Source of the DNA: Salinivirgaceae bacterium
Lineage (GTDB): Bacteria; Bacteroidota; Bacteroidia; Bacteroidales; SZUA-534
DNA length: 64,000 bases
Assembly (NCBI GenBank): GCA_017557785.1
Contig: JAFYYA010000084.1
Span: forward strand, 23,223 to 87,222
Direction: 5' to 3'
Of the stretch, positions 48,954-61,637 are shown one piece after another; the stretch's first letter is position 1, and each line of letters begins with the position of its first letter. The notes beneath the pieces were generated by a model. It was not told where the DNA came from, ran no database searches, and was given only the letters and a program-made list of their open reading frames with translations. A program made the position numbers and the translations under genes.

Positions 48954-50075
48954 ATGAACAAGATTGTACCTATCACATTGTTAACCGGCTATTTAGGTAG
49001 CGGTAAGACAACTCTGCTGAATAAGATTCTGGCCAACAACCAGGGACTGAAAATCGCCGTCATTGTAAACGATATTGGCGAGATAAACGTCGATGCGTCG
49101 CTGATTGAGAAGGGTGGCATTGTGAACAAGAAGGACGACAGCCTGGTGGCCTTGAGCAACGGCTGCATCTGCTGCACGCTCAAAACCGACCTTATCGACC
49201 AGATTACCAGCATCACCAGCACCGGCAAGTTCGACTATATTGTGATTGAGGCCAGCGGTATTTGCGAACCACTGCCCATTGCGCAGACCATTGTTGCCAT
49301 CGGCGACTATGCCCGCCAATACAATCAACCCGCGCCTTGCCGACTCGACAGCATTGCAACTGTGGTTGATGCTTTGCGTATGGCGCGCGAGTTCGGTTGC
49401 GGTAATCAACTTACACGCAATAATATCGATGACGAAGACATTGAGAATCTGCTCATTCAGCAAATAGAGTTCTGCAACATCATCATTCTGAACAAAGTTG
49501 CCGAAGTGACGGAGGACGAATTGAAACTTATCCGTGCCGTAATCAAGAAGTTACAGCCATCGGCCGAAATCATCGAGACCAACTACTGCGAGTTCGATTT
49601 CCACAAGATTATGGATGCCAAACAGTTCGACCTTGAAAAAGCGTCGATGTCGGCAGGCTGGGTTGAGGAGCTTGAGAAAGATGATGACGAGCACGAACAC
49701 GAAAGCGAGACTGAGGAGTACGGCATCGGAACATACGTTTACTATCGACGTAAAGGATTTAATTACACCAAGTTCGAGACTTTTGCCAACGACCGCTGGC
49801 CGGCAAACATCATCCGCAGCAAGGGCATCTGCTATTTCAACGACGATGCCGATATGTCGTATATGTTCGATCAGGCCGGAACGCAGAAGAAACTTGTGAA
49901 GGCGGGGCAGTGGATTTGCACCGCACCCGAAGAGGAGCAGAAGCAGCTGCTGGCTCAAAGCGCCGAGCTGCGCCACGACTGGGACGAGGAGTATGGCGAC
50001 AAGATGATTAAAATAGTTTTCATTGGTCAAAATATTGACCGCGAAGCACTTAAGGCTGAGTTGGACAAAATATGA
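48954..50075 (+). CDS. COG0523-family metal-handling GTPase (CobW/ZigA-like)
   Basis: This 373-residue G3E GTPase of the COG0523 group acts as a metallochaperone for zinc or other metals. It has Walker A TGYLGSGKTT (residues 11-20), the metal-binding CICC motif (71-74), EASGICEPLPI (switch region), NKVAE (guanine base recognition) and a CobW C-terminal domain. A short linker rich in Asp/Glu/His (DDDEHEHESE, near 243) probably binds metal. The metal is not evident; no Zur-like site was recognised upstream. A terminator follows. Confidence 0.88.
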   Translation: MNKIVPITLLTGYLGSGKTTLLNKILANNQGLKIAVIVNDIGEINVDASLIEKGGIVNKKDDSLVALSNGCICCTLKTDLIDQITSITSTGKFDYIVIEASGICEPLPIAQTIVAIGDYARQYNQPAPCRLDSIATVVDALRMAREFGCGNQLTRNNIDDEDIENLLIQQIEFCNIIILNKVAEVTEDELKLIRAVIKKLQPSAEIIETNYCEFDFHKIMDAKQFDLEKASMSAGWVEELEKDDDEHEHESETEEYGIGTYVYYRRKGFNYTKFETFANDRWPANIIRSKGICYFNDDADMSYMFDQAGTQKKLVKAGQWICTAPEEEQKQLLAQSAELRHDWDEEYGDKMIKIVFIGQNIDREALKAELDKI

Positions 50076-50100
50076 GAAATCGAAAAAGATAGATTGATAC

Positions 50101-50135
50101 GGTCGGTTGTGAATTTACAGCCGGCCTTTTTTTTT
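50101..50135 (+). terminator. Intrinsic terminator after the COG0523 gene
   Basis: A 10-bp stem with two G-U pairs (50101-50110 with 50117-50126) is followed by nine T. Confidence 0.9.
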
Positions 50136-50147
50136 GATTGTCAGAAT

Positions 50148-51053
50148 TTACTTTTTGAACAACGCCTTGAATTCGTGTGGTATTTCCGATGTGAATTCCA
50201 TCACTTCTTTGGTCATTGGGTGGGTGAACTCAATCTGCTGCGCGTGCAGGCATAACCGTCCGCAAGGGTCAGTGACAGCGCCATACTTGCCGTCACCGGC
50301 CACTGGATGCCCGATGTGGCTCATATGTATGCGGATTTGGTTTTTGCGTCCGGTTTCCAATTCGAGCGCGAGCATCGAAAACTGACCATTGGTTTTCAGC
50401 ACCTTATAATGTGTGATGGCTCGTTTGCCCTTGCCTTCTTTGGTCACGTGCATCACCATAGTATATTTATTCTCGTCAATCCAAGTGTCGATGGTGCCTT
50501 CCGGTTCATCGGGGCAGCCTTCGACAATGGCAATGTAGCGGCGGCTCTGAACGCTCTCGTTCCACGTTGTGCGCAGGCGGAACTGCACTTCTTCGCTTTT
50601 CGCGAAAATCAGTATTCCCGACGTGTCGCGGTCGATGCGGTGGACGATGAAGATGCATTCGCCTTCGCCCTTGAAGCGCATATAGGCGTCGAGATAGTTC
50701 TGCGCCGTTTGGTAACGCTCGCTCTCGTTGCCCACGGTGAGTAGTCCCGTCTCTTTCTTCACCACAATCAGCCATTTGTCTTCCCAAATGATTCTCAGCC
50801 CTTTAGGCATCGGGAATACTGGGTCGGGCTTTTTGCCGATAAAGAGCGTCTGTCCGGCTTTGAGCCTGTCCGATAGTTGGCGCAGAACAACACCATCGAC
50901 CGTGATGGCACCTTTCTGCAGCAGTTGTCGGATCGATGTCCGGCTCTTGCCCTGCATGATGCGCCCAAGGAACTCTTCAACCGTCTGGTCAGCTTTGACG
51001 GGATAGGAGTTTCCTTTCGGTTCCTGCTTCCGTGGTTTGTCGTTCATTCTCAT
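50148..51053 (-). CDS. RluA-family RNA pseudouridine synthase
   Basis: This 301-residue protein has an N-terminal S4 domain (about 18-75: TVEEFLGRIM, SRTSIRQLLQKGAITVDG) and the RluA catalytic domain with VHRIDRDTSGILIFAKS, where the Asp of HRIDRDTSG is the catalytic residue. The C-terminal block TGRKNQIRIHMSHIGHPVAGD matches. Target (rRNA or tRNA) is not determinable. The start could be 51053 or 51047; the longer frame from 51080 has less support. tRNA-Arg lies 49 nt upstream on the same strand and may share its transcript. Confidence 0.92.
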   Translation of the reverse strand: MRMNDKPRKQEPKGNSYPVKADQTVEEFLGRIMQGKSRTSIRQLLQKGAITVDGVVLRQLSDRLKAGQTLFIGKKPDPVFPMPKGLRIIWEDKWLIVVKKETGLLTVGNESERYQTAQNYLDAYMRFKGEGECIFIVHRIDRDTSGILIFAKSEEVQFRLRTTWNESVQSRRYIAIVEGCPDEPEGTIDTWIDENKYTMVMHVTKEGKGKRAITHYKVLKTNGQFSMLALELETGRKNQIRIHMSHIGHPVAGDGKYGAVTDPCGRLCLHAQQIEFTHPMTKEVMEFTSEIPHEFKALFKK

Positions 51054-51102
51054 TGCCGATAGAAAATAAAAGCCAACCACTTGACAATGATTGACTTATT
51101 TG

Positions 51103-51174
51103 TACCCCCGCTGAGAATCGAACTCAAATTTAAAGTTTAGGAAACTTCCGTTCTATCCGTTGAACTACAGGGGC
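51103..51174 (-). tRNA. tRNA-Arg (anticodon CCT)
   Basis: A 72-nt cloverleaf on the minus strand has acceptor GCCCCTG pairing with CGGGGGT (first pair G-U). The D arm carries AGTTCAACGG, the anticodon stem-loop is GAAGT-TTCCTAA-ACTTT with anticodon CCT, and the T arm has TTCGATT. Discriminator A; the CCA end is not encoded. It decodes AGG. Confidence 0.92.
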
Positions 51175-51183
51175 AGAACGGCT

Positions 51184-51191
51184 GCAAAAGT
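51184..51191 (-). promoter_or_regulatory. -7 box TACTTTTG for tRNA-Arg
   Basis: A perfect TAnnTTTG on the minus strand 9 nt before the mature tRNA 5' end, inside a small GGCT/AGCC palindrome. Confidence 0.55.
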
Positions 51192-51357
51192 AGCCAATCA
51201 AATTTAATTTGGAAATTGTGTCGGAAGAAAATTGGTTTTGCCGGATAATAGTTTTGGGGCAGTGGGTGGATGATGTATTAGTTCTGTGTCGATGAAGGAA
51301 TCCGTTATCAATCAGTGTTTTTTATCAAAAATGAAAATTTTTAAAATTTCCCCAAAT

Positions 51358-51395
51358 GTGTGCACGGATATAGCACACTGTCGGCATTATGTTTG
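51358..51395 (+). promoter_or_regulatory. Palindrome-centred promoter, copy 1 (ADP-ribosylglycohydrolase)
   Basis: Arms GTGTGC (51358-51363) and GCACAC (51373-51378) flank the 9-nt centre ACGGATATA. Exactly 9 nt later comes TATGTTTG (51388-51395), a perfect -7 box. The centre sits where -33 should be. An A/T tract ending TTTAAAATTTCCCC precedes it. The predicted leader to 51494 is about 95 nt and starts with a GCCGC/GCGGC hairpin. The rest of 51192-51493 holds no gene. Confidence 0.65.
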
Positions 51396-51493
51396 CCGCG
51401 ATTATTAAAAATAAGCGGCGCGAAAACCTGCTTAATATGTAAATTTAAGTGCGAAATAGAGCGAATATAATTAACAAATAAAAGTAAAACAAC

Positions 51494-52306
51494 ATGTTAG
51501 GAGCGATAATTGGAGATACTGTCGGGTCGATATACGAATTCGACAACATTAAAACCACTGATTTTCCGCTTTTCTCGGAGCGGAGTACGTTTACTGACGA
51601 TTCAATAATGAGCGTTGCCGTGGCCGACTGGCTTTTACGCGATAAAATGCACACTCACAAAGAGTTGGAGGTGTCAATGGAGCGTTTTGCCGACGAATAT
51701 CCCAACCCGACTGGCGGCTACGGAGGCTCTTTCTACGGCTGGCTTTTCAGCGGGCGCGAGCGCAAGCCCTACAACTCGTGGGGCAACGGTTCTGCAATGC
51801 GCGTGAGTGCTGTGGGCTGGATGTTTGGCACGCTGGAGGAGACATTGAATGTGGCAAAAATGTCGGCCGAAATTACTCACAATCACCCCGAAGGGATAAA
51901 AGGCGCACAGGCAACTGCCGCCGCCATATTTCTAGCAAGAACAGGAAAAACGAAAGCGGAAATCCGCTCGTACATTGAACGCACCTACGGATATGATTTA
52001 CAGCGCACTTGCGACGAAATCCGTCCAACGTATTGTTTCGAGGAGAGTTGTCAGGGAACCGTGCCGCAGGCGATAATCGCATTTCTAGACAGCACCGATT
52101 TTGAATCTGCCATTCGCTTGGCTGTCTCGCTCGGCGGCGACAGCGACACGCTTGCCTGTATCACAGGCGGTATTGCCGAAGCGTTTTACAAAACAATTCC
52201 GCAGCCAATAGTGAAAGAAATTTGGCAACGCCTGCCCGATGATTTCAAGGTGGTTTTACGTGAGTTGGAACAGCAATCGGAATATGAATTGCCGAAAAAT
52301 CTTTAA
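51494..52306 (+). CDS. ADP-ribosylglycohydrolase (DraG/ARH-like)
   Basis: This 270-residue, all-helical, magnesium-dependent hydrolase removes ADP-ribose from proteins (or small molecules). Metal-binding motifs are in place: GAIIGDTVGS at the start, FTDDS near residue 35 and SLGGDSDT near 217. GNGSAMRVSAVGW and NHPEGIKGAQATA fit the family core. Relatives include DraG, which reverses nitrogenase modification, and the Tri1 immunity proteins, which reverse FtsZ modification. No nitrogenase genes are in the window. It is the first gene of the accessory island and is driven by palindromic promoter copy 1. A miniature FtsZ-like gene with the same promoter lies 1.2 kb downstream. Confidence 0.92.
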   Translation: MLGAIIGDTVGSIYEFDNIKTTDFPLFSERSTFTDDSIMSVAVADWLLRDKMHTHKELEVSMERFADEYPNPTGGYGGSFYGWLFSGRERKPYNSWGNGSAMRVSAVGWMFGTLEETLNVAKMSAEITHNHPEGIKGAQATAAAIFLARTGKTKAEIRSYIERTYGYDLQRTCDEIRPTYCFEESCQGTVPQAIIAFLDSTDFESAIRLAVSLGGDSDTLACITGGIAEAFYKTIPQPIVKEIWQRLPDDFKVVLRELEQQSEYELPKNL

Positions 52307-52355
52307 TTTTACTAATAACTAAAAGTTGCGCCCGCCACGAATCAGGGTTACTAAA

Positions 52356-52661
52356 ATGATTGCAGATGTAATGTCTAAGAACAATAAGTATGTTGTTTTT
52401 AATGAACAAGGTAAGGAAATTGCCAATGGTTGGGAAGACAATTTGGGCAATCTGGTTGATTTTACCGATTCGTTCATTTTGTTCGAAAAAGGAGACAAAT
52501 TCTTCACTGTCGACGAGCGATTGAAAGAGATTGCGCACGAATGGAAAAACACTGTCGGTGAATTTAGAAATGCGGCAGGGCATATTGTGAATTTCACAAA
52601 AAGCGACAAGATTTATACTCGCGATATGAGGTTTAAAGAAATCAGTCATCGCTGGATTTAA
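52356..52661 (+). CDS. Small W-repeat protein, unknown function
   Basis: This 101-residue cytoplasmic-looking protein is made of three imperfect repeats of about 30 residues. Each ends in a KEI-x-x-x-W pattern: GKEIANGW, LKEIAHEW, FKEISHRW. Each opens with a hydrophobic beta strand (YVVFNE, FILFEKGD, VNFTKSD). I do not recognise the family; a small beta-repeat fold is likely. The start at 52356 follows ACTAAA; 52371 is possible. It sits 49 nt after the ADP-ribosylglycohydrolase gene and 28 nt before the UDG-like gene, so a three-gene transcript is plausible. It is A+T-richer than the chromosomal core. Confidence 0.55.
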   Translation: MIADVMSKNNKYVVFNEQGKEIANGWEDNLGNLVDFTDSFILFEKGDKFFTVDERLKEIAHEWKNTVGEFRNAAGHIVNFTKSDKIYTRDMRFKEISHRWI

Positions 52662-52689
52662 TATTATTAATTAACTAAAAATCAAAAAA

Positions 52690-53391
52690 ATGGCAACAGA
52701 AAGGTATAACAACATCGGAAAAGGAGGAATTGTCAAAGAAGGTATTTTTGTTAGATTTCCAGATTTGAGTCCTGCGAGTGAGAATAATTATTGGGCAAAT
52801 CCTATGCATAGTAAACTGATGATAGTAGGAGAAAGTAGTTATTTCCCTGATAGCGTACCCAGCGTTTTCAAAGACCCAGAAGCGTGGTATAAAGGGGGAG
52901 ATGTACAGCATTTAATTCCGCTATCAGATGACCCTGAAAAACCAAAAAAATATATCAATTTAGTTAACAACTGGAAAACAGAGACTGAACACGTTGACAG
53001 ATTGCTTAATTCTTTGAAAGAAGTTTCCAAAATGGATATTAAAACCATTTATACTGAAGCAATGTATTACAATTATTTCTTGCGTCCCGCAACAGACATA
53101 AAAGGCAATCAATCATTCAAAAAAGATTGCCAATCAATAGACCGTGATGTTGCAGGAACCGCATTATGTGAGATTCTTGAGTTAGATAAACCAGACATTG
53201 TGATAATTGCAAGTAAGTACGCATACGATGAGTTTCAAAAATATATAACAAAGACAAAGTATGTGCCCAAAACACGTATAGAATTTGTTTATCATCCTAC
53301 TAGTCATTTTCAGAATTGGTATAAAAATGTAAATAGCAAGCAAAAATTCGAACGTCTTTTGAAAGAATATTGGATAAAAGGAAACAAATAA
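52690..53391 (+). CDS. Uracil-DNA-glycosylase-like protein
   Basis: This 233-residue protein shows the outer marks of the UDG-like fold: LMIVGESSYFPD near residue 43 (in place of the GExPG nucleotide loop) and a late HPTSHF near residue 206 (in place of the HPS motif). The middle DIVIIASKYAYDEF strand matches the usual 'vvvlG' strand. The catalytic Asp/Asn of true uracil glycosylases cannot be assigned, so activity on uracil is uncertain. It may belong to the broader 'UDG-like' families of unknown function found in accessory islands. It is notably A+T-rich and Lys-rich compared with its neighbours, consistent with recent transfer. Confidence 0.5.
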   Translation: MATERYNNIGKGGIVKEGIFVRFPDLSPASENNYWANPMHSKLMIVGESSYFPDSVPSVFKDPEAWYKGGDVQHLIPLSDDPEKPKKYINLVNNWKTETEHVDRLLNSLKEVSKMDIKTIYTEAMYYNYFLRPATDIKGNQSFKKDCQSIDRDVAGTALCEILELDKPDIVIIASKYAYDEFQKYITKTKYVPKTRIEFVYHPTSHFQNWYKNVNSKQKFERLLKEYWIKGNK

Positions 53392-53436
53392 ATCTTTGGT
53401 TAGCCTTCAAAAACTTTTTCAAAAAATCAAAATTTC

Positions 53437-53480
53437 CCGATGCTGTGCACGGATGTTGCACAGCATCGGTTGTATAATTG
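53437..53480 (+). promoter_or_regulatory. Palindrome-centred promoter, copy 2 (FtsZ-like gene)
   Basis: A 12-bp perfect inverted repeat (53437-53448 with 53458-53469) flanks the 9-nt centre ACGGATGTT. Nine nt after the inner arm GCACAG lies TATAATTG (53473-53480), one base off the -7 consensus. The sixth arm base differs from copies 1 and 3 and is compensated (C-G for G-C). The gene starts 39 nt downstream. Confidence 0.65.
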
Positions 53481-53519
53481 CACCGTAATTGTTTAATACT
53501 TTTTTAAAAACTAAAGATT

Positions 53520-53999
53520 ATGAGTGTATTAGCAAAAGAATCAGAGAACAGCCGCACGGGAATTAGGGTTAGTGCCTATGGTGGCGGCGGAGTGAATGTG
53601 GTTAGACATTTAGGCAAGAGCGGCTTTTTTGATGGCCGTTATTCAGTTGACAGTACCAATGAACCGCAGATAGCTTTTGTGATAACCTGTTTGGGTGGAA
53701 AAACTGGAACCGAAATGGCGCCAGTCAAGGCTCGCGAGGTGCGAGAGTCGAGCGCCATAACCATCGGCATTGCAACGCTGCCGTTTGAGTTTGAAGGTGC
53801 CGAACGCTGTGAACGCGCAGCGGCAGGCCTTTGCGCCCTGGCCGAAAACACCGATGCCTTGTTCGTCTTGAACAACAACTATCTGGCAAAACACTGCGGC
53901 GAAATGCCAGCAACCGAAGCCTTCGCCCTTGCCGACGAAAAGATGTGCGACATTATCTGGAAAATTGCTCAATCATTTACCGAGAAATCAAACTTGTAA
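53520..53999 (+). CDS. Miniature FtsZ-like protein (159 aa)
   Basis: This protein aligns by eye with the nucleotide-binding half of FtsZ. Residues 21-26 give the T1 glycine loop (GGGGVN), 58-65 a tubulin signature (GGKTGTE for GGGTGTG) followed by MAPVKAREVRE, and 81-121 the TIGIATLPFEFEGAERCERA...LFVLNNNYL stretch that mirrors FtsZ's TVGVVTKPFxFEG...IPNDxL. A final helix ATEAFALADEK matches the start of H7. About 40 residues between T2 and the signature are missing, and the protein ends before the catalytic T7 loop and the C-terminal domain. The signature has two changed glycines, so GTP binding is uncertain. It cannot form a normal filament; it could cap or decoy FtsZ. A WYL gene follows 33 nt later. 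Confidence 0.7.
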   Translation: MSVLAKESENSRTGIRVSAYGGGGVNVVRHLGKSGFFDGRYSVDSTNEPQIAFVITCLGGKTGTEMAPVKAREVRESSAITIGIATLPFEFEGAERCERAAAGLCALAENTDALFVLNNNYLAKHCGEMPATEAFALADEKMCDIIWKIAQSFTEKSNL

Positions 54000-54032
54000 A
54001 TCGTTAATTTATAATCAAATGTCTGTATAGTT

Positions 54033-54914
54033 ATGACACCAAACGCAAAATTACTCTGGCTTGTAAGAAAAATTAAGAATAGAGGTCGAACGCTTAAGGA
54101 AATTCAAGAAGCCTATGAAGAAGATTTTCAAGACAAACTGCCACGCAGAACTTTTTGGAGTTGGAAAGAAAACATTGGGGATGTGTTCGGCATCGACATT
54201 GATTTTGTACGCAAAGGCAGAGAGTGTATCTATTACATTTCAACTGATTTAGATGATTTCCAAAATTGGATTCTCAACTCAATGTCGGTCAACAACGAAT
54301 TGTTAGAGAACAAATCGATACGTAACCGAATTATGCTCGAAAATGTTCCGTCGAGTCAAAAGTATCTCTCATTGATACTCAAGGCGATGCGCGAAAGCAA
54401 GGTGCTTGAAGTCGTGCACAAAAGTTTTTGGAACAATGGGGAGGAAAAGACCTTTCATCTGGAGCCATATTGCGTCAAGATGTTCAGGCAGCGGTGGTAT
54501 GTGGTCGGCAAAAACGACTACGGAAAGCCAGGCGACAACATCCGTATCTACGGTCTCGACCGCATCGGCGGTCTCTCGCTGACCGACCAGCGATTCACCT
54601 ATCCCGACAGTTTCAACCCCGAAAAGTATTTCGATGGCTGCATTGGCGTTTGCTTCGATGGCGAAGTCACCAACGTGACGCTGAAGGTGGATGTTAATCA
54701 GGCCAATTATCTGCGCTCGCTGCCACTGCACCCATCGCAAAAGGAAAAAGAGCAGCACGACGGCTACAGCATCTTTACCCTGCGTGTCCGCCCGTCATTC
54801 GATTTTGTACAGGAACTGCTTCACAACCGCGACACCATCGAGGTGCTCGAACCGAAGGCACTTCGTGATGAACTGGCCCAAATTGCCAAAAACATTTGGG
54901 AGAAGAACCGTTGA
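54033..54914 (+). CDS. WYL-domain transcriptional regulator (paralogue A)
   Basis: This 293-residue regulator has an N-terminal winged-helix-like part (about 1-65; LKEIQEAYEEDFQDKLPRRTFWSW includes the recognition helix), a helical linker, and a WYL domain (about 115-290) with FHLEPYCVKMFRQRWYVVG, the sensor core, followed by the C-terminal extension (LRSLPLHPSQ). WYL proteins bind nucleic-acid-like ligands and often control defence islands. It lies directly after the FtsZ-like gene and probably shares its palindromic promoter, so it is a candidate for the protein that binds the palindrome. A close paralogue is at 59881-60774. Confidence 0.88.
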   Translation: MTPNAKLLWLVRKIKNRGRTLKEIQEAYEEDFQDKLPRRTFWSWKENIGDVFGIDIDFVRKGRECIYYISTDLDDFQNWILNSMSVNNELLENKSIRNRIMLENVPSSQKYLSLILKAMRESKVLEVVHKSFWNNGEEKTFHLEPYCVKMFRQRWYVVGKNDYGKPGDNIRIYGLDRIGGLSLTDQRFTYPDSFNPEKYFDGCIGVCFDGEVTNVTLKVDVNQANYLRSLPLHPSQKEKEQHDGYSIFTLRVRPSFDFVQELLHNRDTIEVLEPKALRDELAQIAKNIWEKNR

Positions 54915-54923
54915 GCAGAAGTT

Positions 54924-54952
54924 GTAAGTTGAAAGTTAGTAAGTTATAAGTT
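54924..54952 (+). repeat. Word repeat AAGTTGAAAGTTA, inverted partner at 59841
   Basis: The 29-nt segment reads as the reverse complement of 59841-59868 with few differences (AGTTGAAAGTTAxTAAGTTATAAG). Each copy lies at the edge of a WYL gene: after paralogue A and before paralogue B. It could be a recombination scar or a dispersed intergenic word. Confidence 0.5.
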
Positions 54953-55129
54953 TTCTAAAGCAACCGTAGGGACTCTCTCGCAGTATGCTGGTTCATAAAA
55001 TGTGTGTTTTTGTCCTAAAAAGTGTCAAGAAAATGTGTGAATTTGCTTTCAAAAATGTCAAGAAAATGTGAGGTGGTACTGATTATCAATTTATTGCGCG
55101 ATTGTTTGGCGTATTCATAAAATGTGATA

Positions 55130-55213
55130 TTATTTGTTTGGATTTTTGCTAAAATTCCATAATTATTTATTTAGATTTTTACCAAAATGGCCCGATTATT
55201 TGTTTGGATTTTT
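55130..55213 (+). repeat. Three 18-bp direct repeats at an exact 33-bp period
   Basis: The unit TTATTTGTTTGGATTTTT starts at 55130, 55163 (two base changes) and 55196, separated by unrelated 15-nt spacers. The period of 33 bp is about three helical turns. The last copy contains the -33 box of the downstream ATPase gene. The remaining part of 54953-55129 is A+T-rich with a twice-repeated GTGTxAAGAAAATGTG-like word and holds no gene. Confidence 0.8.
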
Positions 55214-55233
55214 ATGAATATTCATTACTTTTG
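55203..55233 (+). promoter_or_regulatory. Promoter of the first AAA/DUF4143 ATPase
   Basis: TTTG at 55203-55206, a 19-nt spacer and TACTTTTG at 55226-55233 match the Bacteroidota consensus exactly. The ATG follows 20 nt later. The -33 box lies inside the third 18-bp repeat, so proteins binding the repeats would act on this promoter. Confidence 0.8.
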
Positions 55234-55253
55234 CGTCGTAAAACGCTGCAACA

Positions 55254-56627
55254 ATGTATTATAAGAGAATCATTGACGATTATCTTGTCGAATGGGCTAC
55301 ACAACCATTGCACAAGCCACTGCTTTTGCGTGGGGCGCGGCAAGTTGGAAAATCGACTGCTGTCCGACATTTGGGTGAGCGGTTTGGCAACTTTGTTGAG
55401 GTGAATTTCGAAAAGCAACCAGTCTTTAAGCAATTGTTTCAGAGCGATATGGACGTACGGCGCATTGTCCCGCAGATGGCGGCAATGGCAGGTAAGCCAA
55501 TCGATGCTGGCAAGACACTTCTTTTTCTCGATAAGATTCAGGCTTGCCCCGAGGCCATAATGGCTTTGCGGTTTTTCAAAGAGGATATGCCTGAATTACA
55601 CGTTGTTGCAGCGGGTTCGCTACTTGAATTCACTCTCAACGACCTGCCAACATTCGGCGTCGGGCGCATTCACTCAATGTTTATGTACCCGATGACTTTC
55701 GACGAGTTTATGGAAGCCAACGGTGAGCAACTGCTCATTGAAGAACGCAATCGGGCAACCGCAGCAAAACCGCCGTCAGAGCCTTTGTATCAGAAACTTA
55801 TCGAGATGTTGCGAGTCTATATTCTTGTCGGAGGAATGCCAGAACCAGTGAGTTGTTGGGTTGAGAAGCACGATTTTCTGGCTTGCCAGCAGGTGCAAGA
55901 CGACATCGTGCTAACCTACGAGGACGATTTCCCGAAATACAAAAAGAAAGTCGATGCAGACCTGTTGCGGCAGGTTCTGCGGAGTGTGGCTGTGCAGGCA
56001 GGACAAAAATTCGTCTATTCGCAGGTCGGCGACTACAAGGGAACAGATGTCAAAAAGGCTTTGGAACTGCTGCACCGCGCGGGTCTTATCGCCCCCGTTA
56101 CTCATACTAACGCCAGCGGACTGCCGTTGGGAAGCGGAGCCGACAATCACTACCGAAAGATGCTTCCGCTCGACACTGGGCTGATGCTTCGGCAGTTGAA
56201 TATGGCCTTTGGCAATGCCGCCGAACTAAACACGCAAATCCTTACCTGCAGTGCAACCGATTTGGTCAATAAAGGGGCTGTGGCCGAAGTTCTTGCAGGA
56301 TTGGAAATGCTTCGGTATCAGACACCTAACATTCGCCACGAAATGTTTTACTGGCTTCGGCAAACCAAAAACTCTTTGGCAGAAGTCGATTATCTAACAA
56401 TTTATGAATCAAACATTTTACCCGTTGAGGTAAAGGCTGGAACGCAAGGTGGGATGAAAAGCCTGTGGGCATATATGCGAGAGAAACAACTTTCAAAAGC
56501 CGTCAGATGTTCACTTGAAAACTTTGGTGCGCTCGATTACACCGATAAGGACGACGGCAACGCAGTGCGCCACATCGTTATTTGCCCGTTATTTGCTGTT
56601 TCCCAAATGTATAAGATTATGGTTTAG
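55254..56627 (+). CDS. AAA_14/DUF4143 ATPase with altered Walker B
   Basis: This 457-residue protein belongs to the ATPases with an N-terminal AAA_14 domain and a C-terminal DUF4143 domain, common in accessory regions of Bacteroidota; the family's biological role is unknown. Walker A is GARQVGKST (residues 27-35). The family's LFxDEIQ Walker B reads FLDKIQA here: Asp93 is kept but the catalytic Glu is Lys94. The DUF4143 part (about 230-420) has the nuclease-like SLAEVDYLTIY and LPVEVKAGT strands (E...D...E-x-K), which resemble a PD-(D/E)XK core. A metallophosphoesterase gene follows after 35 nt. The Glu-to-Lys change may leave ATP binding but not hydrolysis. Confidence 0.85.
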   Translation: MYYKRIIDDYLVEWATQPLHKPLLLRGARQVGKSTAVRHLGERFGNFVEVNFEKQPVFKQLFQSDMDVRRIVPQMAAMAGKPIDAGKTLLFLDKIQACPEAIMALRFFKEDMPELHVVAAGSLLEFTLNDLPTFGVGRIHSMFMYPMTFDEFMEANGEQLLIEERNRATAAKPPSEPLYQKLIEMLRVYILVGGMPEPVSCWVEKHDFLACQQVQDDIVLTYEDDFPKYKKKVDADLLRQVLRSVAVQAGQKFVYSQVGDYKGTDVKKALELLHRAGLIAPVTHTNASGLPLGSGADNHYRKMLPLDTGLMLRQLNMAFGNAAELNTQILTCSATDLVNKGAVAEVLAGLEMLRYQTPNIRHEMFYWLRQTKNSLAEVDYLTIYESNILPVEVKAGTQGGMKSLWAYMREKQLSKAVRCSLENFGALDYTDKDDGNAVRHIVICPLFAVSQMYKIMV

Positions 56628-56662
56628 ACCGATACACCATTCTGCTAACGAAAAAAATAGAA

Positions 56663-57265
56663 ATGAAAATCCTTCACTTTTCCGACACGCACACTCTTCA
56701 CCACCAGTTGGGCAATCTGCCTGCGGCCGATGTCGTGGTTCATAGTGGCGATATCTCTCACCGTGGAACGGAAGATGAGTGTCTCGATTTTCTCAATTGG
56801 TTTATCGGGTTGCCGTACAAGCACAAGATTTTCGTCTGCGGCAATCACGATTTTTGTCTCTACGAGGCTGACGGCATTGAGGATTTGCCCGCCAACGTTC
56901 ATTTCTTGCAAGACCGCGGCGTGACCATTGATGGTGTGAAGTTCTATGGCACGGGTTATCTGCATTATCAGAAACCGATTCCGACGGACACTCAAATTCT
57001 TGTTACGCACGAGCCGCCACTTGGCATTCTCGACCGCGAAATGGCTTGTGGCATTGGCGATTATGGCAGCCAGGAAATACTGCAACAGGTGTTTGAGCTG
57101 CCCGCTCTGCGGCTGCACTTGTTCGGTCATTCGCACAATGGTTATGGCCTTTACCAGAAAAATGGGATTGTCTTCAGCAACGCTGCACTTTTAACCAGCG
57201 GCGGAGTGGAGATTGCCCGTGAGCCGCGATTGATAGAGTTCGATGGTTCTGTCAAAATCTTATAA
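56663..57265 (+). CDS. Calcineurin-like metallophosphoesterase
   Basis: This compact (200 aa) member of the metallophosphatase superfamily has all five metal-site motifs in order: FSDTH (residues 6-10), HSGDIS (near 29), GNHD (near 60), THEPP (near 117) and GHSH (near 153). That implies a working two-metal centre. The substrate is unknown; short members of this family include phosphodiesterases acting on small cyclic or bis-phosphate compounds. It follows the ATPase gene by 35 nt and is probably in the same transcript. Confidence 0.88.
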   Translation: MKILHFSDTHTLHHQLGNLPAADVVVHSGDISHRGTEDECLDFLNWFIGLPYKHKIFVCGNHDFCLYEADGIEDLPANVHFLQDRGVTIDGVKFYGTGYLHYQKPIPTDTQILVTHEPPLGILDREMACGIGDYGSQEILQQVFELPALRLHLFGHSHNGYGLYQKNGIVFSNAALLTSGGVEIAREPRLIEFDGSVKIL

Positions 57266-57365
57266 AAGATTGATTTGTAAGATTAAACCATTTTTCCTGC
57301 TGATTTTTGCCAATAGGTAATACCCGAATTCACCACTCTGCGAAATTTTCAAAAATTTTTCTATT

Positions 57366-57403
57366 GTGTGCACGGATATCGCACACCCACCACCACATTT
57401 TTG
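57366..57403 (+). promoter_or_regulatory. Palindrome-centred promoter, copy 3 (73-aa gene)
   Basis: Arms GTGTGC (57366-57371) and GCACAC (57381-57386) flank the centre ACGGATATC. Nine nt later lies CATTTTTG (57396-57403), one base off TAnnTTTG. The A/T tract TTTTCAAAAATTTTT precedes it, as before copies 1 and 2. The gene starts 23 nt after the -7 box. Confidence 0.65.
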
Positions 57404-57426
57404 CATTGTTTTAAAAGCATAGAACA

Positions 57427-57648
57427 ATGAATGCACAAAACCTATTATCCGAAATCCGCCACCACAGCCTTGCGCAGCAGGAGCAAATGCTGTGGGTAGT
57501 GCTCGAAGCGCTTGACGATGAACTCAAATGCGGCGACCGCCCTGCGCAGGCTATCAAGGAGGAAATCAACATTTTGCTTGCCGCTTTGCGCGATGTGTTG
57601 AATCGAAAAGGCAGACGTATCAGTGTTGTTGAAATGAAAATTGTGTAG
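57427..57648 (+). CDS. Small helical protein of unknown function
   Basis: This 73-residue protein of unrecognised family is predicted to be mainly alpha-helical, with one long amphipathic stretch (LAQQEQMLWVVLEALDDEL), a short loop (KCGDRPAQ) and a second helix (INILLAALRDVLNR). There is no signal or TM segment. It is taken as real because it has its own copy of the palindromic promoter with a short leader. Its function may be inferred only by regulon membership, together with the ADP-ribosylglycohydrolase and the FtsZ-like protein. Confidence 0.6.
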   Translation: MNAQNLLSEIRHHSLAQQEQMLWVVLEALDDELKCGDRPAQAIKEEINILLAALRDVLNRKGRRISVVEMKIV

Positions 57649-57675
57649 GGCATAACACTATGCGTAAGGATAATT

Positions 57676-57683
57676 TACATTTG
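57676..57683 (+). promoter_or_regulatory. -7 box TACATTTG for the exonuclease gene
   Basis: A perfect TAnnTTTG 22 nt before the ATG at 57706. No clear -33 box. Confidence 0.45.
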
Positions 57684-57705
57684 TCGAACTACAAAAAAAA
57701 CTACT

Positions 57706-58200
57706 ATGCAAAACTTTGCAGCAATCGATTTTGAAACGGCCAACGGCAAGCACTCTTCGGTTTGCTCGGTGGGAGTGGTTATAGTGCGAGACGGCGAGAT
57801 TGTCGATTCGTTCTACTCGCTCATTCGGCCCGAGCCCAACTATTACGCGTGGTTCTGCCAGCAGGTGCACGGTTTGAGCCACGAAGACACCGACTCGGCG
57901 CCGCTCTTTCCCGACGTTTGGGCGCAGATTGAACCCAAAATCAAAGGCCTGCCGCTTGTGGCGCACAACAAGTCGTTCGACGAGCGCTGCCTGAAAGCCG
58001 TGTTCCAAACCTATCGTATGGATTATCCTGACTATCAGTTCTTTTGCACCTGCATAGCCGCGCGTCGGCATTTTGGCAAGGATTTGCCCGACCACCAGTT
58101 GCACACCGTGTCGGCCGCCTGCGGCTACATTCTCGAAAACCACCACCACGCCCTTGCCGACGCCGAAGCTTGCGCGGCGATTGCGAAGGTGATTTTGTGA
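57706..58200 (+). CDS. DEDD-family 3'-5' exonuclease
   Basis: This 164-residue stand-alone exonuclease domain is of the DnaQ/epsilon type. Exo I is AIDFETANG (near residue 6), Exo II is VAHNKSFDERCL (near 85) and Exo III is HHALADAEACA (near 147), giving the D-E-D-D metal ligands and the general-base His of the DEDDh group. Such small proteins trim DNA or RNA 3' ends. In islands they may serve repair or defence. It is more G+C-rich than the A+T-rich genes at 52-53 kb. Confidence 0.9.
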   Translation: MQNFAAIDFETANGKHSSVCSVGVVIVRDGEIVDSFYSLIRPEPNYYAWFCQQVHGLSHEDTDSAPLFPDVWAQIEPKIKGLPLVAHNKSFDERCLKAVFQTYRMDYPDYQFFCTCIAARRHFGKDLPDHQLHTVSAACGYILENHHHALADAEACAAIAKVIL

Positions 58201-58240
58201 GATGGATTTTGGTGTTGGGGGTTGGGCAACCGAAAATGCT

Positions 58241-58301
58241 TGAAAATTCGCAGTACCACTTCATATTTTCATTGAAAATTCGCAGTAGAGTTGCGGATTT
58301 T
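58241..58301 (+). repeat. 61-bp direct repeat, left copy
   Basis: It is nearly identical (one mismatch seen) to 59472-59532; the copies flank the second AAA/DUF4143 gene 1,231 bp apart. Inside the unit the word TGAAAATTCGCAGTA occurs twice, 32 bp apart (58241 and 58273). The unit ends just before the -7 box of the ATPase gene, so it covers the upstream promoter region. Confidence 0.85.
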
Positions 58302-58303
58302 TA

Positions 58304-58311
58304 TATATTTG
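58304..58311 (+). promoter_or_regulatory. -7 box TATATTTG for the second ATPase
   Basis: A perfect TAnnTTTG directly after the left 61-bp repeat and 17 nt before the ATG at 58329. The -33 position falls in TTCGCAGTA of the repeat rather than a TTTG. Confidence 0.5.
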
Positions 58312-58328
58312 CAGAAAATTAATAGGCT

Positions 58329-59462
58329 ATGAACGAGCGTGTTTTGCAAATTATCGACGATGAAAGCGTGTTTCTGTTCGGTGCGCGCCAAACAGGGAAG
58401 ACAACAATGCTTATGAACCGTTTTCCCGATGCCAAATATTTCGACCTGCTTCAAACCGACGTATTGAACCGCTTCCGTCAGCGGCCAGCATTGTTGCGCG
58501 AGACGCTAAAAACCGCCGCCGAAGACCAGTTGGTAATCATTGACGAGATTCAGCAAGTGCCAGAACTTCTGAATGAGATTCATTGGCTGATAACGAACCA
58601 AAATCTGCGGTTCATACTGTGTGGTTCGAGCGCGCGAAAACTTAAACGTCAGGGTGTTAACACGTTAGGTGGACGTGCCGTGCCACAGTATCTGTTCCCG
58701 TTTGTGAGTTGCGAGGTCCCTGATTTCGACATAGACCGCGCCGTGAACAACGGTATGATGCCCCGCCACTATCTGAAAGACAATCCTGCCAGTCTGCTGA
58801 AGGCTTACGTAGGCATATATCTGCGTGAGGAGATTCAAGCCGAGTCACTTGTTCGAAACCTTGCTGGCTTTTCGCGATTTCTCGAAATTGCAGCAATGAC
58901 CGACGGCGAAATGGTTAATTATATGAATATCGCGTCAGATTGTGGGGTGAGTGCAAACACGGTGAAAGAGTATTTCCAAATTCTTGCGGACACGCTGGTG
59001 GGCTATATGATTCCAGCCTATACACGCAAAGCCAAACGGAAAGTTGTGCAAGCGCCGCGTTTCTACCTATTCGACGTGGGTGTCACAAATTACTTGCTTG
59101 GTCGCTCACACCTGCAACGTGGCACAGTTGAGTATGGCCACGCGTTTGAACACCTTGTGGTTCAAGATGTTGTTGCGTATTTAAGTTACACCGACAACCC
59201 TAATAAACTATCATACTGGCGGACTTACACACAGATTGAAGTTGATATGATTTTAGGTGACGCCAAAGTTGCCATTGAAATAAAATCGACAGAAGAGGTG
59301 CTGTCCAAACACCTAAAAGGACTGAAAGCCTTTGCCGACGAATATCCCGAATGCCGCTTGATGATTGTGTCGCTCGACCGCTTCAACCGCATTGTCGATG
59401 GCATTGAACACCTGCACGTTAACGACTTCTTCAGGAAACTGTGGGCACACGAAATTATTTGA
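58329..59462 (+). CDS. AAA_14/DUF4143 ATPase (second copy, intact motifs)
   Basis: This 377-residue ATPase is of the same family as the gene at 55254 but only distantly similar and 80 residues shorter. Walker A is GARQTGKTT (residues 18-26) and Walker B IIDEIQQVPE (Asp72, Glu73), both intact. The DUF4143 part again ends with nuclease-like strands: TQIEVDMILGD and KVAIEIKST (E-x-D...E-x-K). The gene lies between two 61-bp direct repeats, one of which forms its promoter region, suggesting that it is a discrete mobile or amplified cassette. The role of the family is unknown. Confidence 0.87.
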   Translation: MNERVLQIIDDESVFLFGARQTGKTTMLMNRFPDAKYFDLLQTDVLNRFRQRPALLRETLKTAAEDQLVIIDEIQQVPELLNEIHWLITNQNLRFILCGSSARKLKRQGVNTLGGRAVPQYLFPFVSCEVPDFDIDRAVNNGMMPRHYLKDNPASLLKAYVGIYLREEIQAESLVRNLAGFSRFLEIAAMTDGEMVNYMNIASDCGVSANTVKEYFQILADTLVGYMIPAYTRKAKRKVVQAPRFYLFDVGVTNYLLGRSHLQRGTVEYGHAFEHLVVQDVVAYLSYTDNPNKLSYWRTYTQIEVDMILGDAKVAIEIKSTEEVLSKHLKGLKAFADEYPECRLMIVSLDRFNRIVDGIEHLHVNDFFRKLWAHEII

Positions 59463-59471
59463 ATAAATTAT

Positions 59472-59532
59472 TGAAATTTCGCAGTACCACTTCATATTTT
59501 CATTGAAAATTCGCAGTAGAGTTGCGGATTTT
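59472..59532 (+). repeat. 61-bp direct repeat, right copy
   Basis: It matches 58241-58301. It begins 9 nt after the stop of the ATPase gene. No TAnnTTTG box follows this copy; instead a remnant coding segment follows, as if a second cassette had lost its promoter and 5' part. Confidence 0.85.
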
Positions 59533-59548
59533 ATGGGTAAAATGCAAC

Positions 59549-59761
59549 GTGACCGAGATAACGTCGGGCGGGTTTATTATGAAGTACCACCTGAAAGCCG
59601 CAAGTAGCGTGCGCAGCGCGTTAGACAAACTTATCCGTCTCGAACTCATTTACAAAAACGACTGCGAACACACTGTGTATGACCGCTTTATGAACGAATG
59701 GCTTAAAAAATCTGAACTTATACGGCAAGGCTGTCGGTGGCTGTTTTTGAAAACGCTTTAA
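59549..59761 (+). pseudogene. Remnant C-terminal part of an AAA ATPase
   Basis: About 70 codons encode a winged-helix tail (LKAASSVRSALDKLIRLELI, then YDRFMNEWL) typical of the C-terminus of stand-alone AAA ATPases in Bacteroidota, in which a similar SSV..AL..L helix and YDRFxxxWL strand end the protein. The ATPase core and any start are missing; just upstream lies the right 61-bp repeat. It is probably a decayed gene left by recombination at the repeats. An ATG at 59579 could still produce a 60-residue peptide. Confidence 0.5.
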
Positions 59762-59840
59762 CTCACATTTAGATGTTGAATTTGCATCAAAATTGAAAGG
59801 AAAATGGTTAATTTAGGCAACAAAAAACTATCAAGACGGG

Positions 59841-59868
59841 AACTTATAACTTATTAACTTTCAACTTT
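59841..59868 (-). repeat. Word repeat, inverted partner of 54924-54952
   Basis: The words AACTTATAACTTATTAACTTTCAACTTT lie immediately before the second WYL gene (12 nt from its ATG). See the partner copy after the first WYL gene. Confidence 0.5.
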
Positions 59869-59880
59869 AAACTCAAAACA

Positions 59881-60774
59881 ATGGCACTTAATCAGTACGC
59901 AAAATATTTCTGGCTTATAAGAACAATTTATGAGGCCAAACGCATAACACTCAAAGAGATACAGCAACGCTACTTCGACCGTTTTCAGGACACGCTGCCG
60001 CGCCGCACCTTCTGCGACTGGAAGGATGCAGTTGAAGATATGCTCGACATCAACATTAATTGCGCCACCAAAGGCGGATACGTTTATTACCTTGATAATG
60101 ACATGGATGAGTTTCATCGCTGGCTGCTCGACGCAATGTCGGTGAACGAAACGCTGCTCGACAACAAATCGCTCAGCGACCGTATTCTGCTGGAGGACAT
60201 ACCATCGAGCCAGACATTCCTGGCCACCATACTACAGGCGATGAGGGAAGGCAAAGTGCTGGAAGTCACTCACAAAGGTTTCAGCAGCGACGATGAGAAG
60301 ACTTTCAATCTGAAGCCTTATTGCGTGAAATTGTTCAAGCAGCGCTGGTATGTGGTTGGCAAGAACGATTACGGAAAGGGCGACGATAACATCCGCATCT
60401 ACAGCCTTGACCGTATCATTAGCATCAATCTGACAAATAAAAAATACACTTATCCTAAAGATTTCGACCCGGAAGTCTATTTCCGTGGCAGTTTCGGCGT
60501 CATTCTCGGTTACGATTGCAAGATTGAGAACGTGCGGCTGAAGGTTGACGCCAATCAGGCCAACTATCTGCGCTCACTGCCGCTGCACCCGTCGCAGGAA
60601 GAAGTGGAGCGACACGACGACTACAGCATCTTCACCCTGCGGCTGCGTCCAACGTTCGATTTTCAGCAGGAACTGCTTCGCAATGCTGATGCACTCGAAG
60701 TGCTTGAGCCGCAATGGCTTCGCGACGATATGGCCGATAAGGTTCACCGGATGTGGGCAAGATATAATAAATAG
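59881..60774 (+). CDS. WYL-domain transcriptional regulator (paralogue B)
   Basis: This 297-residue paralogue of the regulator at 54033 is alignable over its whole length with almost no gaps. Shared blocks include LKEIQ, LPRRTF, LDNKS/LENKS, QRWYVVGKNDYGK and NQANYLRSLPLHPSQ. The N-terminal winged helix and WYL domain (about 120-295) are both complete. The divergence is greatest in the N-terminal DNA-binding part and around residues 60-80, so the two may read different sites. It is the last gene of the accessory island. Confidence 0.88.
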   Translation: MALNQYAKYFWLIRTIYEAKRITLKEIQQRYFDRFQDTLPRRTFCDWKDAVEDMLDININCATKGGYVYYLDNDMDEFHRWLLDAMSVNETLLDNKSLSDRILLEDIPSSQTFLATILQAMREGKVLEVTHKGFSSDDEKTFNLKPYCVKLFKQRWYVVGKNDYGKGDDNIRIYSLDRIISINLTNKKYTYPKDFDPEVYFRGSFGVILGYDCKIENVRLKVDANQANYLRSLPLHPSQEEVERHDDYSIFTLRLRPTFDFQQELLRNADALEVLEPQWLRDDMADKVHRMWARYNK

Positions 60775-60793
60775 AAAATCAAAGAATTGGTAA

Positions 60794-60844
60794 TTTCAAT
60801 CATTCAATCATTCAATCATTCTGTCCTTCAATCCTTCAATCCAT
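60794..60844 (+). repeat. Imperfect tandem word repeat (TTCAATCA)
   Basis: Six or so successive 8-9 nt words of the type TTCAATCA/TTCAATCC lie between the island and the hdr-like operon. Non-coding; it marks the island edge. Confidence 0.6.
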
Positions 60845-60914
60845 CGATTCCACTAAGTATAAATACCACCCCGATTTGGGCATAAAACGGCTATAGCATC
60901 TGCCTACTAACCCC

Positions 60915-60922
60915 TATTTTTG
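60915..60922 (+). promoter_or_regulatory. -7 box TATTTTTG for the hdr-like operon
   Basis: A perfect TAnnTTTG 19 nt before the ATG at 60942. No TTTG was found at the expected -33 distance. Confidence 0.5.
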
Positions 60923-60941
60923 TGGCGTTAAACAGATTCTG

Positions 60942-61637
60942 ATGGGTAAACTATACGACCTTTTGCTCGAGGATATCCGCTTTGTTGAGGGCTTGAACGC
61001 CTGTATGAACTGCGGAATGTGTACGGGTGTGTGTCCTGCGGCGGAATTCTACGATTACGACCCGCGCCGCATTGTGGACGAAGTTCAGAAGAAAGACGAT
61101 GAGGTTATCCTGAAATTTCTGAAATCGGAGACCATTTGGTACTGCGGGCAGTGTATGAGTTGCAAAACCCGCTGTCCGCGAGGCAATACGCCTGGCTTTG
61201 TCATTCAGGCGCTGCGCAAACTGTCGGTCAAACTGGGCTATTTCACCTGCTCGGAGAAGGGCCGCCAACAATTCGCCATTAAGCGTGTGGTTGGCCACAG
61301 CATTCTGGAGCGCGGCTACTGCGTCCACCCCGACATTGTTACCCCGTGGATGCACCCCGAACAGGGCCCCAACTGGGAGAATATCTACAACAACACCGAA
61401 GAGTTTATGCAGAATCTGGGCATTCCGTACAAGAAAGAAGGCCCTGGCCCGCTGCGCAAAATCGACCAAAAGAACCTTGACGAACTCAAGAAAATCTTCG
61501 ATGTGACGGGCGGCACAGAGATGTACGACTGCATTGAAAAATATTCGGCCGAAAAGGCCAAAGAGATGGGCGTCGATTTTGAGAACGGCGACTATCTGAA
61601 TATGGTTTTCAAAACAAATTCCGACTACGATGAGTGA
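60942..61637 (+). CDS. HdrC-like 4Fe-4S dicluster protein
   Basis: This 231-residue electron carrier is like heterodisulfide reductase subunit C. Two complete [4Fe-4S] motifs are seen: CMNCGMCTGVCPA (near residue 21) and CGQCMSCKTRCPR (near 68). A helical C-terminal part of 150 residues is longer than in methanogen HdrC. No TM segments, so it is soluble. Its stop overlaps the HdrB-like start by 8 nt. In bacteria such sets often work with Flx/Mvh/formate dehydrogenase partners in electron bifurcation; the partner here is beyond the window. Confidence 0.88.
   Translation: MGKLYDLLLEDIRFVEGLNACMNCGMCTGVCPAAEFYDYDPRRIVDEVQKKDDEVILKFLKSETIWYCGQCMSCKTRCPRGNTPGFVIQALRKLSVKLGYFTCSEKGRQQFAIKRVVGHSILERGYCVHPDIVTPWMHPEQGPNWENIYNNTEEFMQNLGIPYKKEGPGPLRKIDQKNLDELKKIFDVTGGTEMYDCIEKYSAEKAKEMGVDFENGDYLNMVFKTNSDYDE

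Follow-up and report, generated by a model that had tools for sequence, protein, structure and literature searches.

The WYL-domain protein DriD is a transcriptional activator in Caulobacter crescentus. Its site, ATACGAC-N7-GTCGTAT, comprises about 20–21 bp, is centred on the -35 region and lies at one distance from the -10 element, and the -35 elements of its promoters are weak (PMC12340889). Targets of DriD are dnaG and recJ (PMC12340889) as well as didA, which encodes a division inhibitor (PMC4211646). Here, we describe three palindromic sites in a stretch of 64,000 nucleotides (nt), designated the window, from contig JAFYYA010000084.1 of a Salinivirgaceae bacterium (order Bacteroidales). 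They belong to a gene cluster that encodes two WYL-WCX regulators. With a probability of roughly 0.6, these palindromes are operators of WYL-domain dimers that bind across the -33 region, make the promoters activator-dependent, respond to damaged or phage DNA and represent the local version of an order-wide class. This reading is based on sequence comparisons.

The likeness to DriD concerns both layout and targets. A dyad of about 20 bp covers the -33 region and keeps a fixed distance to a proposed -7 box, which amounts to 20 nt in the window and peaks at 19 nt across the order. The counterpart of the weak -35 at DriD promoters is the -33 TTTG. It is missing from the window copies and from almost all elements of the genus, and some distant members retain it. 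The targets dnaG, recJ and didA are paralleled here by genes for DnaG, an exonuclease and FtsZ-like proteins. In contrast, phylum, sigma factor, promoter elements and arm sequence (CTNTGC-N9-GCANAG here) are different, and activation by single-stranded DNA may be assumed for the present sites by analogy with DriD.

The mycobacterial WYL activators PafBC and SiwR are associated with altered -35 recognition or with the -26 region (PMC11804915, PMC10693628). SiwR uses a 19 bp imperfect palindrome upstream of the -10 that spans the -35 to -10 region (PMC10693628). The PafBC motif is non-palindromic, located at -26 and read by a heterodimer (PMC6789036, PMC11804915), whereas the dyads presented here are centred near -33. 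BrxR is a WYL protein that represses defence genes from inverted repeats located downstream of the predicted -10 (PMC9122601), whereas the sites in the window lie upstream of the box and thus do not occupy the position of a BrxR operator. CapW is a WYL factor of CBASS (PMC9122588). On average, about 2.1 WYL proteins per organism have been reported for Bacteroidetes (PMC6789036). A literature search, judged by titles and abstract openings and with subscription papers mostly outside its range, yielded no paper on a Bacteroidota WYL promoter. With the housekeeping promoters of sigma ABfr (PMC7366714), the sites share the -7 box TAnnTTTG, whereas the -33 TTTG is replaced by the palindrome in the window.

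Three palindromes with constant spacing to a proposed -7 box

In the following, d denotes the number of nt from the palindrome centre to the first base of the -7 box. The sequence TGTGCACGGATNNNGCACA is present in three exact copies starting at 51359, 53444 and 57367, each immediately 5' of a gene, and in all three copies the centre is located 20 nt upstream of a -7-like box. The six-base arms of copy 2 (53443–53463) flank, like those of copies 1 and 3, an asymmetric 9 nt centre (ACGGATATA, ACGGATGTT and ACGGATATC in copies 1, 2 and 3, respectively; consensus ACGGATRTH), and 9 nt separate the sixth arm base from the box. Two boxes, TATAATTG and CATTTTTG, depart from TAnnTTTG at one position each. 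The TTTG of sigma ABfr promoters is absent at all three copies, and the palindrome centre occupies the -33 position. A preceding sequence-only reading had claimed these arms, centres and box spacings, an A/T tract 5' of each copy and the displacement of the -33 TTTG; all of this agrees with the raw sequence. The compensated change of the sixth pair from G-C to C-G that it had proposed was found as well (GTGTGC/GCACAC in copies 1 and 3, CTGTGC/GCACAG in copy 2), and the extension of copy 2 to 12 bp corresponds to the 12 pairs counted outside the 9 nt centre, or 13 if the A-T pair at the centre edge is included. The fixed spacing, the dyad over the -33 position and the likely need for a dedicated factor, all put forward in the same reading, are supported.

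TGTGC-N9-GCACA without mismatches matched in the window only at the three copies; with one mismatch, 5 matches were obtained versus 3.6 expected. The whole genome (3.0 Mb) contains 7 such sites, three of which have the ACGGAT centre. The full core occurs exactly three times in the genome, always in the window, and the next best match in a search that allowed up to 3 mismatches has 2. A window scan for a 9 nt centre, inner GC pairs, at least 5 of 6 arm pairs and d = 19 or 20 before a box returned exactly the three copies. The inner 17 bases of the core, GTGCACGGATNNNGCAC, had no match in the 59 other genomes searched. A class defined by the fixed motif TGTGCACGGAT, as first suggested, is therefore too narrow. 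What is kept outside the window is a palindrome with variable arms, a 9 nt centre and a position mostly 19 nt before the box, compared to 20 nt in the window.

Inverted repeats might also act at the RNA level, as hairpins of terminators or attenuators. Some members elsewhere, for instance in genome G331, do resemble a hairpin followed by a T run. However, the window copies are not among the 6 terminator-like sites found (a number not above that in shuffled sequence), neither of the two Rfam matches (E ≤ 1, region 50000–61000) overlaps them, and they precede the proposed transcription start at a fixed distance from the box, which makes this explanation scarcely credible. The RNA element was dropped as a candidate, as neither a terminator-like nor an Rfam match was present at the three copies. 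Likewise, duplication of one promoter was rejected, because the arms have changed symmetrically and related elements precede different genes.

Spacing and symmetry across the Bacteroidales

Five palindromes in distant stretches with WYL genes were first noted at 19.0 nt from TAnnTTTG. Among 52 such stretches, no other single distance was as frequent as 19.0 nt, whichever of the four settings was used. When arms of 8 or more pairs were required, the box TAnnTTTG gave 6 sites at d = 19.0 (mean per half-nt bin 0.52) and the box TNNNTTTG gave 8 (mean 1.27). In 20 control stretches, which came from the same genomes and included two shortened by contig ends, the corresponding values were 1 (mean 0.15) and 2 (mean 0.36).

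The pattern CTNTGC-N9-GCANAG followed by 8 nt and TNNNTTTG (d = 19) yielded 29 matches in 21 of 393 Bacteroidales genomes, compared to 3 in the backward control. With 9 nt (d = 20), 11 matches in 9 of 386 genomes were obtained (backward control 3), and with 11 nt (d = 22) only 3 matches in 393 genomes (backward control 4). Seven of the 29 matches at d = 19 originate from the genomes that had suggested the pattern (G168, G059, G138) or from the genus of the window (G008), and 22 from elsewhere; 9 are labelled as located within an open reading frame (ORF), labels that are partly spurious and partly reflect chance matches in genes.

The arms of the 29 sites covary symmetrically. Of the 29 sites, 17 have complementary bases in the two arms at the free offset 8 (shuffled mean 8.0, p = 0.001), with all four pair types represented, and 17 likewise at offset 4 (mean 9.1, reached in 0 of 2000 shuffles). 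Covariation was further observed at offsets 12 (p = 0.0035) and 13 (p = 0.019); among these 29 sites it was not significant at offsets 3, 11, 14, 15 and 16. Such symmetric covariation is the mark that would be left by a dimer site with changing specificity.

Nearness to WYL genes

A WYL gene was scored as nearby when matched by the profile of A4 with E ≤ 1e-5 within 10 kb. This applied to 14 of the 29 sites at d = 19 (9 of the 22 outside the pattern-suggesting genomes and the genus) and to none of the three at d = 22. Among the 14, four have distant WYL proteins of 92–121 bits, and in one the WYL gene is truncated where the contig ends. WYL matches are listed in 98 of 198 genomes. From the WYL gene counts, chance nearness can be roughly estimated at about 1%, and 14 of 29 is far higher. 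The proposal that WYL proteins are the candidate factor gains support from these 14 sites and from the WYL genes in the cluster. Sites are located immediately 5' of a WYL gene in G138, G059, G190 and G316, and in G168 with an imperfect palindrome; stretches with a site directly at the WYL start are L208, L211, L197 and L305. A contiguous palindrome of at least 6 pairs at d = 18.5–20 and within 150 nt upstream was found at 4 of 63 WYL genes versus 10 of 809 other genes (p = 0.014).

Related elements in the genus

With homologues of the WYL genes in genomes of the same genus, which appear to derive from rumen and other ruminant stomach samples, related upstream elements were located. A covariance model, R1, was built from the three window copies and two sister copies, and 150 candidates per genome were scored. 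Among these candidates, R1 gave 39 matches with E ≤ 1 (5 of them the building sequences) in 9 of 11 genus genomes including that of the window, and none in 9 genomes from 6 other genera of the family. At E ≤ 3, 47 matches in 27 stretches were obtained. The common form in the genus consists of an A/T tract, CCTNTGC-N9-GCANAGG with highly variable arms, about 7 nt and the box. A motif expression that tolerated up to 2 mismatches matched 88 times in these stretches versus 8 times in reversed sequence, the 88 including antisense readings of palindromes and some clearly unrelated sequences. Downstream of 40 of the 47 R1 matches, a same-strand ORF of at least 100 aa begins within 160 nt, compared to 7 in the opposite direction, as called mechanically by script. 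One of 82 element-like sequences, a set that contains some antisense readings, has a TTTG starting at offsets 15–20 before the box. This compares to 10 occurrences among 60 other box-like sites, whose base composition is different. Genes behind or within the genus arrays encode, among others, an AAA ATPase, DnaB-like, LRR, RtcB, FtsK, DnaG, SbcD-like, Schlafen-like and HIRAN proteins.

In 1081 pairs of genus elements, the downstream flank alone is shared in 9, the upstream flank alone in 3 and both in 2, and the elements have a single orientation within each of 7 stretches. Both observations would fit a cassette array of the integron type in which the sites serve mainly as recombination joints and the promoter is incidental. 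Against this very improbable reading, every site has a box behind it at a single spacing, a start codon follows most of them, and other families hold single members without arrays. The flanks look as if promoter-gene modules had been shuffled at the palindromes. Stretches of the genus in which one gene with its element adjoins unrelated upstream flanks, or one upstream flank adjoins unrelated downstream flanks, include L119, L122, L125, L126, L128 and L135. Two sister genomes carry near-identical copies of CTTTGCAACTCGGTTGCAGAG, a site of a different sequence type that precedes TATTTTTG at d = 20 (G007:C9:7911, G007:C14:252803 and G008:C6:35028).

Recurring target genes

Four gene families recur behind sites across taxonomic families. 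The FtsZ-like protein of the window has a homologue with 33% identity in G168, a genome of another family, that is also located behind a d = 19 palindrome. The AAA ATPase of the genus recurs in G331 (51% identity), a KaiC/DnaB-like ATPase is shared by G022 and G329 (75%) and a 140 aa protein by G168 and G006 (48%). Single cases outside the genus are an N6 methylase (G099), a PIF1-like helicase (G036) and Cas6 (two genomes of one genus); a second N6 methylase, in G159, is marginally below the Pfam cut-off. The exonuclease (60%) and the small protein (42%) of the window recur in a Paludibacteraceae WYL stretch, in which the placement of a site is not established. The Cas6-like genes (L301, 5860–6114; L302, 9124–9786) are preceded by d = 19 palindromes of the subtype CTATGCANAAAGGCTGCATAG, which suggests that CRISPR loci are under the same control logic.

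Genes of the window cluster

The sites and genes of the cluster are summarized in Table 1. The WYL and WCX domains of both regulators exceed the Pfam cut-off, and according to a Pfam WYL search these are the only WYL genes of the genome, which is 94% complete. The first 110 residues, a partly conserved region, had no Pfam match; a winged-helix search on the N-terminal part alone was not made. Eight WYL-type sequences of solved structure are matched by the WYL profile over the WYL-WCX part only; they include 6sj9 (PafBC) and 8tp8 (DriD; E = 6.3e-8).

Table 1. Sites and genes of the WYL cluster (window coordinates)
Feature	Position	Strand	Basis
A/T tract preceding copy 1	51335..51349	+	raw sequence
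Palindrome copy 1, arms GTGTGC/GCACAC	51358..51378, centre 51368	+	raw sequence, palindrome scan
-7 box TATGTTTG of copy 1	51388..51395	+	raw sequence, palindrome/box scan
ADP-ribosylglycohydrolase gene (PF03747), first behind copy 1	51494..52306	+	ORF list, Pfam
Small protein	52326..52661	+	42% identity to protein in Paludibacteraceae WYL stretch; no Pfam match
Protein without Pfam match	52690..53391	+	ORF list, Pfam
A/T tract preceding copy 2	53420..53436	+	raw sequence
Palindrome copy 2, 13-pair arms	53437..53469, centre 53453	+	raw sequence, palindrome scan
-7 box TATAATTG of copy 2	53473..53480	+	raw sequence, palindrome/box scan
Short FtsZ/tubulin-like protein, first behind copy 2	53520..53999	+	Pfam; homologue in G168
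WYL-WCX regulator 1, second gene behind copy 2	54033..54914	+	Pfam
A/T tract preceding copy 3	57343..57359	+	raw sequence
Palindrome copy 3, arms GTGTGC/GCACAC	57366..57386, centre 57376	+	raw sequence, palindrome scan
-7 box CATTTTTG of copy 3	57396..57403	+	raw sequence, palindrome/box scan
73 aa ORF, first behind copy 3	57427..57648	+	no NCBIfam or PADLOC match
DnaQ-like 3'-5' exonuclease, behind copy 3	57706..58200	+	Pfam; 60% identity to Paludibacteraceae WYL-stretch protein
WYL-WCX regulator 2	59881..60774	+	Pfam; 59% identity to regulator 1

Compared to its 231 aa homologue from L295, the FtsZ-like protein (159 aa) is missing a segment of the GTPase part at the N-terminus. It might interfere with division instead of polymerising. 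Among the genes at 55254–56627, 56663–57265 and 58329–59462, two AAA/DUF4143 ATPases match the PADLOC candidate PDC-S01, and a phosphoesterase matches PDC-S10; by these matches, the cluster resembles a defence island. A tRNA-Arg (CCT) gene (51102–51174) is located at the cluster border just 5' of copy 1 and is a possible island boundary.

Proposed mechanism and competing explanations

It is proposed that one or both of the WYL-WCX proteins of the cluster act as a dimer. This dimer would straddle the -33 region, with its half-sites on either side of sigma region 4 and its spacing to the -7 box fixed. Promoters that have no normal -33 TTTG would obtain RNA polymerase through the dimer after it has bound a nucleic-acid signal, for which single-stranded DNA arising from damage or from phage attack is the most likely candidate. 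In the order-wide class, spacing and dyad symmetry would be kept while the arm sequence diverges, and the window copies probably belong to this class by their layout.

Several observations weigh against this proposal. Sites at d = 19 are not restricted to WYL stretches, because the control stretches show an excess near this distance, too (with the loose box, 5 of their 24 palindromes with 8 or more pairs fall at d = 18.5–19.5). When arms of 6 or more pairs are counted per TAnnTTTG box, palindromes at d = 18.5–19.5 amount to 10/700 in WYL stretches, 3/257 in controls and 6/545 in reversed sequence. This means, WYL and control stretches do not clearly differ in their rates per box, and the stretch counts support a preferred distance, not a link to WYL genes. 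The strict pattern, whether at d = 19 or at d = 20, is not matched by any window copy, due to the sixth pair G-C in copies 1 and 3, the box TATAATTG in copy 2 and the spacing of 20 instead of 19. In 13 distant WYL loci, obtained from 21 WYL relatives at 34–38% identity, R1 found nothing significant (best E 1.6), and G002 and G008 have WYL genes and no R1 match at E ≤ 1. For 15 of the 29 sites at d = 19, no WYL gene is located within 10 kb (one flank was covered over less than 9 kb for 16 of all 29 sites). Because contiguous palindromes at this position accompany only 4 of the 63 WYL genes, autoregulation is not general, and general WYL autoregulation was dropped as weak. Some distant members retain TTTG within the right arm, e.g. 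CCTATGCCATAATTTGGCATAGG before a WYL gene, and the -33 motif was reportedly not found in Flavobacterium johnsoniae (PMC7366714). For these two reasons, the missing TTTG is weak evidence for an activator.

The 15 sites without a nearby WYL gene, the scarcity of contiguous palindromes at WYL genes and the d = 19 palindromes in control stretches would also be expected if the palindromes were operators of a non-WYL regulator and the WYL genes merely co-clustered with them in defence islands. However, WYL nearness at 14 of 29 sites exceeds the rough chance estimate of about 1%, and sites directly precede the WYL start in several genomes (L208, L211, L197, L305). A non-WYL regulator is thus distinctly unlikely.

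Alternatively, the same WYL dimers could act as repressors, excluding polymerase by binding over -33 until a ligand releases them. A BrxR-like mode of this kind has to be considered because TTTG is retained in the right arm of distant members, whose promoters could fire unaided, and the -33 motif is not found in every Bacteroidota; moreover, BrxR provides a precedent for repression on inverted repeats (PMC9122601). Against repression, TTTG is nearly missing from the genus elements, antisense readings included, compared to other box-like sites, and the BrxR repeats lie downstream of the predicted -10 and not over the -35 (PMC9122601). Repression therefore appears rather unlikely, and activation by WYL dimers across the -33 region is preferred.

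Implications for the Bacteroidales

A broader hypothesis can be put forward tentatively, and we consider it somewhat doubtful. The Bacteroidales may possess an order-wide response to DNA damage and phages that is governed by WYL activators instead of or beside LexA. In such a response, the -33 element would have been exchanged for a dimer site 19–20 nt from the -7 box, the operator specificity would have diverged together with the local WYL protein, and genes for repair, division, replication, CRISPR and methylases would have been shuffled between islands as promoter-gene modules. This raises the question of whether a DriD mode of activation across the -35 region is ancient and workable with a sigma factor that reads different elements. 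The fixed-distance dyad would make WYL regulons in Bacteroidales predictable from sequence alone and would thereby allow new defence and repair genes to be listed.

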